From positions 1-40,196 of the IMG/VR virus record IMGVR_UViG_3300033146_003205: DNA of 40,196 nucleotides. One strand, 5' to 3'. This DNA is from a virus. Positions within the stretch are counted from its first letter, which is position 1, and each line of letters opens with the position of its first letter. Shown piece by piece: positions 5,194 through 40,196 of the stretch. The notes under the pieces are model-generated. The model made no database searches. It was not told the origin of the DNA and saw nothing but the letters and a program-made list of their open reading frames with translations. Position numbers and translations under genes: made by a program.

Positions 5194-5266
5194 GCTGCGA
5201 TAGTCTAATTGGCTAGGCACTCGCCTTGTAAGCGAGAACATGTCGGTTCAAGTCCGGCTCGTAGCT
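5194..5266 (+). tRNA. tRNA-Thr (anticodon UGU)
   Basis: A full cloverleaf can be drawn: acceptor GCTGCGA/TCGTAGC (one G-U pair), D stem GTCT/AGGC, anticodon stem CTCGC/GCGAG with loop CTTGTAA (anticodon TGT), a five-base variable loop and T stem GTCGG/CCGGC with loop TTCAAGT. The discriminator base is T, as in archaeal threonine tRNAs, and CCA is not encoded in register. It reads ACA, a codon used very heavily in the fibre and tail genes. It starts two bases after the stop of the putative TerS gene. Confidence 0.95.
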
Positions 5267-34945: not shown

Positions 34946-35314
34946 TTAAAATACCATGTCTTTAGATTTCTTCACGTCTATGTTTGGTTTCATCACCACT
35001 TCTTTAGTAACTGTTTTTGTCACAGTTTTGGTTTTATTCCAAGACTGATATTTAATTTCTTTCCCTATACCTGCTTCTAAAATTTGCATTGTGACCCAAT
35101 GTGCTTTCCGCCCATTATTAGTTCTGAATTCATTCCCCCGAACAAATTTAAGAGCTTTATTATTACCTAAATTAATTACTGCGTTACCATTAGAAATTGC
35201 ACCAAAAAGAATTAAATTGTTGGTGTTTTTTTCTGCAATAACCACGCTATTAGATTCATCAACTATTACTTCTTTATTTGTAGCTTTCGCTAACATCTTA
35301 TCAAATTCATCCAA
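34946..35314 (-). CDS. Hypothetical protein, TTG start
   Basis: A longer frame would start inside the tRNA at 35380, so it is rejected. The TTG at 35314 follows GGAGGAAAT at eight bases and gives 122 residues. The protein is beta-rich (ISNGNAVINLGNNKALKFVRG, HWVTMQILEA) with a repetitive KTVTKTVTKE segment. It lies between the tRNA-Ala and the helicase-like gene. Confidence 0.6.
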   Translation of the reverse strand: MDEFDKMLAKATNKEVIVDESNSVVIAEKNTNNLILFGAISNGNAVINLGNNKALKFVRGNEFRTNNGRKAHWVTMQILEAGIGKEIKYQSWNKTKTVTKTVTKEVVMKPNIDVKKSKDMVF

Positions 35315-35345
35315 TTTAATTTCCTCCAAAGATATATAAATATAA

Positions 35346-35418
35346 TGGACTGACCGAGATTTGAACTCGGATATCCGCATTGCAAATGCGAGAGTCTACC
35401 AGATTGACCTATCAGCCC
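35346..35418 (-). tRNA. tRNA-Ala (anticodon UGC)
   Basis: The cloverleaf has acceptor GGGCTGA/TCAGTCC with the G3-U70 pair that defines alanine tRNA, D stem GGTC/GACT (one G-U), anticodon stem TCGCA/TGCGG with loop TTTGCAA (anticodon TGC), variable ATAT and T stem CCGAG/CTCGG. Discriminator is A; CCA is not encoded. It reads GCA, which is abundant in the virion genes. Confidence 0.95.
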
Positions 35419-37655: not shown

Positions 37656-38783
37656 TTAATAATTCACAGCTTCGTCTCTTGTAATAAAGAAATGGATTCC
37701 TTTTTCACATTCTAAATAAGATTTATCGTTCCAATCTTCAACAATAACGGTTTCACCAATTTTATATTTAAATTTTGAATCGTGTGTTGAAACTGCTGTG
37801 ATATATTTAGTTTTTCCATCTACGGATTTAATTGAAATAACTTTTGCAGATTTACATCTACATTTTCTTGAAATCATACCACCGACAGCTGTTTTTACAT
37901 TAATTTTTAATTCAACGATTTTGTCTTCTCCGCATTTTTTCCATCCGATAATGTTCCCTTTTTTGGGCAAAATTCTATAATTAAATTTAGCGTTAATAAA
38001 ATTAGCGTTGTTAAAATTAGCGTTGTTAAAATAAGCGTTGTTAAAATTAGCGTTACTAAAATCAGCGTTACTAAAATCAGCGTTATTAAAATTAGCATCT
38101 CTAAAATAAGCGTTACTAAAATTAGCGTTACTAAAATAAGCGTTACTAAAATCAGCGTTACTAAAATCAGCGTTACTAAAATCAGCGTTACTAAAATCAG
38201 CGTTGTTAAAATCAGCTTTATAAAAATAAGCGTTACTAAAATCAGCTTTATAAAAATCAGCGTTGTTAAAATCAGCGTTATTAAAATTAGCGTTATTAAA
38301 ATCAGCTTTATTAAAATCAGCTTTATAAAAATTAGCATTGAGAAATAATTTTAATTCTTCAATAAAACTATCTTCGTCAAGTCCTGCTATTGCTGTTCCA
38401 AGTCCTGTGATTATAACATCTTGTTTTCTTGATGCAAAATAAACACCTAATAAAGCTCTTTTAATAATTTCTTTTTTGGTTTTAATATTTGTATCACAAC
38501 TTATTAAGAAAAATAAATCTTTAGTAAATTTAAATTCTCTTGCGTTTTCGCATTGTTCAGGATATTTATTTTTAATAGCCAAATCAAGACCGCCCGCCAT
38601 ATTAAAATAAGGATTTGAAGCCGTACAAATTAAAGTATTTTTATAATTTTCTTTAGTTTTAAATACATCATTAAATTTTGAAACAATTAGTTCACAATGT
38701 GTATTATTTACTGTTGCTTCAAATAACTTTTTAACTTTGTCCTTTAATTTTTTATTTTTATCACAAAATATTATTTTATTCAT
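37656..38783 (-). CDS. Macro-domain / pentapeptide-repeat / DUF5758-like fusion
   Basis: This 375-residue protein has three parts. Residues 1-148 resemble a macro domain (ADP-ribose binding): NTLICTASNPYFNMAGGLDLAI corresponds to the N-A-x-N...GG-x-D-x-A-I loop, and ITGLGTAIAGLDEDSF to the G-x-G loop. Residues 149-268 are 24 exact-period pentapeptides (type NADFS, KADFN), which form a right-handed square helix. Residues 269-375 match the pattern of the DUF5758-type end domain (CRCKSAKVISI ... GETVIVEDW ... ECEKGIHFFIT). Tail domains of this kind follow pentapeptides in other viruses. The macro part is inferred by motif. Confidence 0.72.
   Translation of the reverse strand: MNKIIFCDKNKKLKDKVKKLFEATVNNTHCELIVSKFNDVFKTKENYKNTLICTASNPYFNMAGGLDLAIKNKYPEQCENAREFKFTKDLFFLISCDTNIKTKKEIIKRALLGVYFASRKQDVIITGLGTAIAGLDEDSFIEELKLFLNANFYKADFNKADFNNANFNNADFNNADFYKADFSNAYFYKADFNNADFSNADFSNADFSNADFSNAYFSNANFSNAYFRDANFNNADFSNADFSNANFNNAYFNNANFNNANFINAKFNYRILPKKGNIIGWKKCGEDKIVELKINVKTAVGGMISRKCRCKSAKVISIKSVDGKTKYITAVSTHDSKFKYKIGETVIVEDWNDKSYLECEKGIHFFITRDEAVNY
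37980..38339 (-). repeat. 15-bp tandem repeats encoding pentapeptides
   Basis: The DNA is a near-perfect array of 24 units of 15 bases with consensus AAATTAGCGTTGTTA on the plus strand. Such arrays expand and contract easily by slippage; other frames through it produce spurious repetitive ORFs. Confidence 0.9.
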
Positions 38784-38899
38784 GTATCACACCCCTCATA
38801 AACCCAATTTATTGAATTATTTTCACTATTACAACCTTTGCAATGACCTTCATCTATTTTGTCAGTTAATCTATATTTGCAATTTGCACATTTATCCAT
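38780..38899 (-). CDS. Zinc-knuckle micro-protein
   Basis: This 39-residue ORF begins MDKCANCKYR and has a second pair CKGC at residues 20-23 (C-x2-C...C-x2-C). Its stop overlaps the start of the macro/pentapeptide gene. It is the same kind of protein as the one at 34855-34944. Confidence 0.6.
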   Translation of the reverse strand: MDKCANCKYRLTDKIDEGHCKGCNSENNSINWVYEGCDT

Positions 38900-40022: not shown

Positions 40023-40196
40023 TTTAATTCCTCGTATATTTTAGTACTTTTGATGTCCATATAAACCCGCGGTTCTCCTGTCAAAAACCTATCAATCCAT
40101 TCATCGACATAACTTTTTATATTGTTTGATTCGTCGGGAAATCGTTTCGAAAACCATTCAATAAATAATTTATTATCTTTATAATTTTTTAATTCA
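40013..40196 (-). CDS. YVDEWIDRFL-family protein, 3' part (crosses the join)
   Basis: This is the other end of the 70-residue gene that starts at 143. From the join at 40082 it reads TGEPRVYMDIKSTKIYEELKCN and stops at 40013. Within the window the frame stays open through the right terminal repeat to 40196. The shared segment (WIDRFLTGEPRVY) is the same as at 3387-3593. Confidence 0.65.
   Translation of the reverse strand, partial: ELKNYKDNKLFIEWFSKRFPDESNNIKSYVDEWIDRFLTGEPRVYMDIKSTKIYEELKCN
40083..40196. repeat. Terminal direct repeat, right copy
   Basis: Identical to 1-114; see the entry for the left copy. Collapse of the two gives a 40,082-bp circle. Confidence 0.95.

Follow-up and report, generated by a model that had tools for sequence, protein, structure and literature searches.

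Macro domains are viral tools against ADP-ribose signalling, and the pentapeptide-repeat proteins MfpA and Qnr are DNA mimics that inhibit gyrase. A functional precedent in a phage is AdfB of phage ICP1, a DarG-like antitoxin mimic that counters DarTG and probably binds DarT directly (PMC11481870). In a survey of viral NAD and ADP-ribose proteins, whose main text does not contain the word "pentapeptide", a macro domain was present in only about 1% of the siphoviruses surveyed, and phage domains that target ADP-ribose were considered more likely to counter soluble ADP-ribose derivatives (PMC9503650). Proteins that combine a pentapeptide rod with a C-terminal DUF5758 domain occur in Mycobacterium Kostyavirus-type phages, in Rhizobium phage RHph_TM3_3_14B and in many IMG/VR contigs, where short N-terminal modules (of the ILxxHxxWL, TPxGxL and IxNRFTG types) stand in place of a macro domain. 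In the literature searched on pentapeptide plus macro domains and on DUF5758 (subscription papers and preprints were outside its scope), the fusion of these parts was not described, nor was a recurrent phage architecture found that mounts a macro domain on exchangeable repeat rods. The parts are each known; their combination and modular behaviour appear to be new.

In the current study, such a fusion was analysed in the virus record IMGVR_UViG_3300033146_003205 (hereafter the window, meaning the whole 40,196-nucleotide stretch of DNA). Bases 1-114 of the window are identical to bases 40083-40196, and with this exact direct repeat of 114 bp at its two ends the record is apparently a complete phage genome of ~40.1 kb. 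Terminase and portal genes are encoded in it, and it is the genome of a small tailed phage. The 375-aa macro fusion gene sits within a leftward non-structural module to which a metallophosphoesterase gene also belongs. When promoters and terminators were scanned for around the fusion gene, nothing beyond chance was detected. Elsewhere in the genome, a tRNA-Thr gene was predicted at 5194-5266 and a tRNA-Ala gene at 35346-35418, the latter overlapping an ORF at 34946-35380.

Domain composition of the fusion protein

The fusion ORF comprises 375 open codons with an ATG start, and the following features were assigned to it.

37656..38783, minus strand: whole gene, 375 aa, macro domain plus pentapeptide solenoid plus DUF5758 (ORF list, Pfam, and equal architecture in phage contigs L069, L114 and L136)
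38792..38797, minus strand: Shine-Dalgarno-like GAGGGG, 8 nt 5' of the ATG (read from the sequence)
38337..38783, minus strand: divergent macro domain, residues 1-149 (hhalign, PDB profile matches, leave-one-out HMM)
38583..38615, minus strand: ADP-ribose pocket motif, by homology, N57-P-Y-F-N-M-A-G-G-L-D67 (11-member alignment A10)
38379..38405, minus strand: phosphate-binding-type loop G127-L-G-T-A-I-A-G-L135 (alignment A10; aligned to PALGTGVGG, the corresponding loop in true macro proteins)
37977..38336, minus strand: 24 pentapeptide repeats (A-D/N/Y-F-x-x), residues 150-269 (unit list, tandem repeat finder at 37980-38336, PF00805)
37668..37970, minus strand: DUF5758, residues 272-372 (PF19062 match, AlphaFold model of residues 271-375)

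All three parts of the fusion that a first-pass annotation, made from the letters alone, had described in 37656-38783 were therefore recovered. The rod contains exactly the 24 units that had been counted there: residues 150-269 form consecutive A-x-F-x-x repeats in a single, unbroken register, encoded by DNA in which a 15-bp unit recurs in tandem 23.8 times with 87% matches (tandem repeat finder), and the Pfam Pentapeptide family PF00805 matched at 1.9e-33 (114.1 bits, against a cut-off of 20.2).

The end that had been called "DUF5758-like" proved to be DUF5758 proper, with a match to PF19062 at 1.6e-30 (105.6 bits, against a gathering cut-off of 26.9). When residues 271-375 were modelled by AlphaFold with a 70-sequence alignment, a model with pLDDT 91.4 and pTM 0.84 was obtained, consisting mainly of strands with one short C-terminal helix. 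Foldseek comparison of this model with the PDB gave nothing below E = 1 (best E = 1.0, probability 0.04), and the DUF5758 sequence gave zero PDB matches at E up to 10. Comparison with a viral structure library yielded 30 proteins below 1e-3, with a TM-score of ~0.7-0.86 over the query and 16-35% identity. Giant viruses supplied many of them, namely MORN, RING and pentapeptide proteins, with which the fusion protein would share a DUF5758-like domain; the phage matches included proteins of Acidovorax phage ACP17, one annotated with HEAT repeats and one from an uncultured phage. As modelled, DUF5758 seems to be a viral domain that is widely found in repeat proteins, a virus-associated end domain with a new fold for which the PDB held no match. 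A confident model and a connection to giant-virus proteins are thereby provided for a common end of phage repeat proteins for which no solved structure was found.

The N-terminal domain was detectable mainly through its family. As a single sequence, the window N-terminus had no Pfam match to PF01661, remaining below the gathering score, and neither phmmer against the PDB nor tblastn against phages and plasmids returned anything; related-locus searches with the whole window protein or with the N-terminus alone likewise retrieved nothing. Residues 2-80 matched PHROG phrog_2613 at 9e-5, and five of nine family members taken singly matched PF01661 weakly (best 1e-4). A leave-one-out HMM of the relatives detected the window N-terminus at 1.6e-51, whereas neither the remaining ORFs of the window nor any of 2,000 shuffled sequences did better than 0.0097. 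When the nine-member profile A5 was searched against the PDB, macrodomains were matched with a best E of 5.5e-4, including TTHA0132 and enzymes designed on it, O-acetyl-ADP-ribose deacetylases, and MacroD-type, alphavirus and coronavirus macrodomains. The 11-member profile A10 matched 48 PDB chains at E up to 1, most of them individually weak, and nearly all were macrodomains or macro-based designs as judged by name. Moreover, weak profile matches in three other Bacteroidota genomes coincided with PF01661 genes (n = 3). In hhalign comparisons, the nine-member family scored 96.3% against genuine bacterial macro proteins (E 1.6e-9, columns 30-132), and A10 scored 95.9% against the same bacterial PF01661 macro genes; a negative control that compared the macro family with DUF5758 scored 0.4%. 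Single-sequence AlphaFold modelling of the whole window protein had a pLDDT of ~30 across residues 1-149 and was uninformative there. At the level of sequence homology, the relationship of residues 1-149 to macro domains is established, bearing out the macro-type N-terminus that had been proposed, and a macro fold is predicted for this region.

Residues that were invariant in all 11 members of alignment A10 included A55, S56, N57, P58, F60, G64, G65, L66, D67, G129 and I132, with G127 and T130 nearly so, and the signature common to every member was ASNPxF...GGLD followed by a G-x-x-I loop. N57 and D67 are 10 residues apart, like the Asn/Asp pair (pocket Asn and catalytic Asp) of MacroD-type enzymes. 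The motif of MacroD1/2 is GGGxDx3H, including a His (PMC11490716). The His of this Dx3H dyad was absent in all 11 members, and the window carries K71. Given that the pocket is conserved but the MacroD1/2 His is missing, ADP-ribose binding by the window macro domain is likely, whereas hydrolysis is uncertain and may be weak or lost. Compared with the macro superfamily PF01661 (MacroD-type or TTHA0132-like; phrog_2613), the window family shares profile homology, the ASN-x...GG-D pocket motif and the G-x-G-T loop, but its members fall below the Pfam cut-off when taken singly, carry an extra N-terminal I-I-F-C-D-x-N segment, lack the MacroD1/2 His and are fused to a solenoid.

Related fusions and exchange of modules

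Relatives were collected by several strategies. Alignment A1, built on DUF5758, led to 80 viral loci, among which L069 had an N-terminus of the window type; a hand-made DNA pattern for NPxFxMxGGxD, applied to viral and genome collections, then led to further relatives, and a final scan added L132 and L136. The resulting family has 11 members (the window and ten relatives). Since most of them came from pattern scans that favour NPxFxMxGG, the macro fusion family is surely larger than this. The pattern gave 13 matches in the genome collections, of which L104 and L106 were genuine and the other 11 look like chance. No match was obtained in 380 genomes taken from the phylum to which a Patescibacteria MAG belongs, a result that shows little for a set without a positive control. 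The survey of viruses that the first-pass annotation had proposed as a check thus found ten related fusions in other phage or phage-like contigs. All members lie on virus contigs except L104 and L106, which lie on MAG contigs that read as phage-like from their neighbouring ORFs (including an RNA ligase close downstream of L106).

Three contigs (L069, L114 and L136) share the exact three-part architecture of the window, and seven more keep the macro domain and change the rod or the end. In L104, L106 and L132, the macro domain and pentapeptide rod are followed by a different end, with the motif YNxDGKARC. L095 joins the macro domain to a hexapeptide left-handed helix (Hexapep, 4e-19). L093 combines it with DUF7666 (3.8e-18) and other repeats, inside which the contig ends; in L092 and L094, other repeats again take the place of the rod, and DUF7666 was matched weakly, below its curated cut-off. 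The window macro domain is closest to that of L132 (51%) despite the different end domain of L132, and the modules have therefore probably been swapped among these fusions, as judged from sequence. Two of the eight inner branches were well supported when a tree was built from all 11 macro domains, too few to give the order of the swaps. Pentapeptide-DUF5758 proteins in turn differ at the N-terminus, where at least four kinds of module were seen, and among the 80 loci the macro domain was seen only in L069.

Two minor observations were made on these relatives. By eye, the GIHF/GIYF and KCRA motifs known from DUF5758 recur in the ends of L095, L104, L106 and L132, but in a changed order, as if DUF5758 had been circularly permuted. 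The L069 gene (2305-3309, IMGVR_UViG_3300002026_000074) is open only when TGA is read as glycine, with in-frame TGA codons at GDIF and KVGEIV, and the RNA ligase gene on the same contig also holds two TGA; this pattern suggests a phage of SR1/Gracilibacteria-type hosts that use code 25.

Proposed role and alternative explanations

We favour, with about even confidence, the explanation that the protein is a viral ADP-ribose eraser or binder on an exchangeable scaffold, directed against ADP-ribose-based host defence. The ligand of the N-terminal macro domain, which it might also hydrolyse, would be either a small derivative of ADP-ribose or an ADP-ribose group; this domain would be carried by the pentapeptide rod, a rigid scaffold open to exchange; and DUF5758 would serve as a terminal scaffold module for capping, partner binding or oligomerisation. 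During infection, the protein might act on the products of host defences (for instance, DarT-like transferases or TIR/Thoeris-type systems), either by stripping ADP-ribose marks from molecules of the phage or the host or by clearing away alarm molecules of the ADP-ribose type. The proposal of the first-pass annotation that the fusion counters ADP-ribosylation-based or NAD-based defence accordingly stays plausible as a functional inference, given the macro signature in 11 of 11 members, the NUDIX and AAA_28 neighbours described below, and the phage precedent (PMC11481870). AdfB resembles the window protein in function if the latter opposes an ADP-ribosylating defence as proposed; a solenoid has not been reported for AdfB.

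The other branch of that proposal, a block of gyrase or topoisomerase, was not supported. In such an explanation the pentapeptide rod would act as a DNA-mimicking inhibitor of gyrase, of topoisomerase or of a restriction enzyme, with the macro domain as a passenger, and the window rod, a 24-unit pentapeptide helix with a net charge of -7, is by itself compatible with it. However, MfpA/Qnr-like mimics would call for a conserved, strongly negative, DNA-like solenoid, and in the macro fusion family neither charge nor length is conserved: the net charge is -4 in L069, +2 in L114, -10 in L104 and -4 in L106, and the rod ranges from ~13 to 29 repeats across the macro-pentapeptide relatives. Even the type of rod changes (L095 has a hexapeptide helix with a net charge of +5 instead, and L092-L094 have other repeats), and both flanks of the window rod are positive (macro +6, DUF5758 +9). 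We therefore regard DNA mimicry as very improbable. Scarcely credible is a further alternative, in which DUF5758 is ADP-ribosyltransferase-like and forms a writer-eraser pair with the macro domain in one chain. It was raised because GIHFF...EA..Y looks, by eye, like the GIYF motif of PARP (GIHF/GIYF), but it was largely refuted by the PDB searches described above, in which the sequence found no match and the confident model had no transferase among the matches listed, and it was dropped.

Two alternatives retain the macro domain as the active part. According to one, which we consider unlikely, the macro domain disposes of ADP-ribose by-products of viral RNA repair or NAD turnover (e.g., ADP-ribose-1''-phosphate), through dephosphorylation or hydrolysis, and has no specific defence target. 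Macro domains of this general type do such work in RNA repair (PMC9503650), RNA ligase genes occur close to the L106 fusion and ~2.4 kb upstream on the L069 contig, and a NUDIX gene lies beside L095. Yet RNA ligase, NUDIX and KptA genes were each searched for in the window genome and none was found there; among the seven virus records searched, RNA ligase was present in one (it is absent from the window and from five of the six others), NUDIX in one and KptA in none, and an enzyme that clears up metabolites would need neither a large scaffold nor an end domain. Slightly less probable still is a sensor or regulator. Its macro domain would have lost catalysis and would sense ADP-ribose signals, which the rod and DUF5758 would pass on to a partner from the phage or the host, for instance to influence the lysis-lysogeny choice or superinfection exclusion. 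The missing Dx3H His is consistent with this idea (motif per PMC11490716), as are the variable N-terminal modules of DUF5758 proteins and the macro-less pentapeptide-DUF5758 genes near immunity repressors in Rhizobium and Mycobacterium phages (L005, L006 and L010). Against it, no repressor or lysogeny gene was recognised close to the window gene, and N57 and D67 are fully conserved, as would be expected if catalysis were important.

If the eraser or binder explanation is correct and the protein inhibits a defence, the family offers eleven named proteins to screen against DarT-, CmdT- and TIR-type systems. A broader and more tentative reading, possible at best, is that these proteins form a new viral family of modular ADP-ribose effectors, in which one macro head is combined with swappable solenoids and end domains that target different defences, and in which an end domain without a PDB match is common to bacteriophages and giant viruses of eukaryotes.

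Gene neighbourhoods of the relatives

Genes linked to NAD adjoin the fusion in only two of the ten relatives. A NUDIX gene (8e-15; L128 1675-2826) overlaps the 3' end of the L095 macro-hexapeptide gene, and an AAA_28 gene (L136 2437-2997) ends 3 nt before the L136 macro-pentapeptide-DUF5758 gene; the AAA_28 family includes the NadR kinase domain. When the fusion proteins were examined with PADLOC, no match was obtained; this, like the scarcity of NAD-linked neighbours and the lack of NUDIX, RNA ligase and KptA genes in the window genome, weighs against the favoured explanation. On the L132 contig, a metallophosphoesterase gene is located ~2 kb upstream of the macro fusion. Further downstream on the L095 contig, an ORF resembles nucleoside-diphosphate kinase by eye. 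In the MAG that holds L104, an ORF that reads like DarT adjoins a PF01661 macro (DarG-like) ORF (L125 904-2576), forming a DarTG-like pair.
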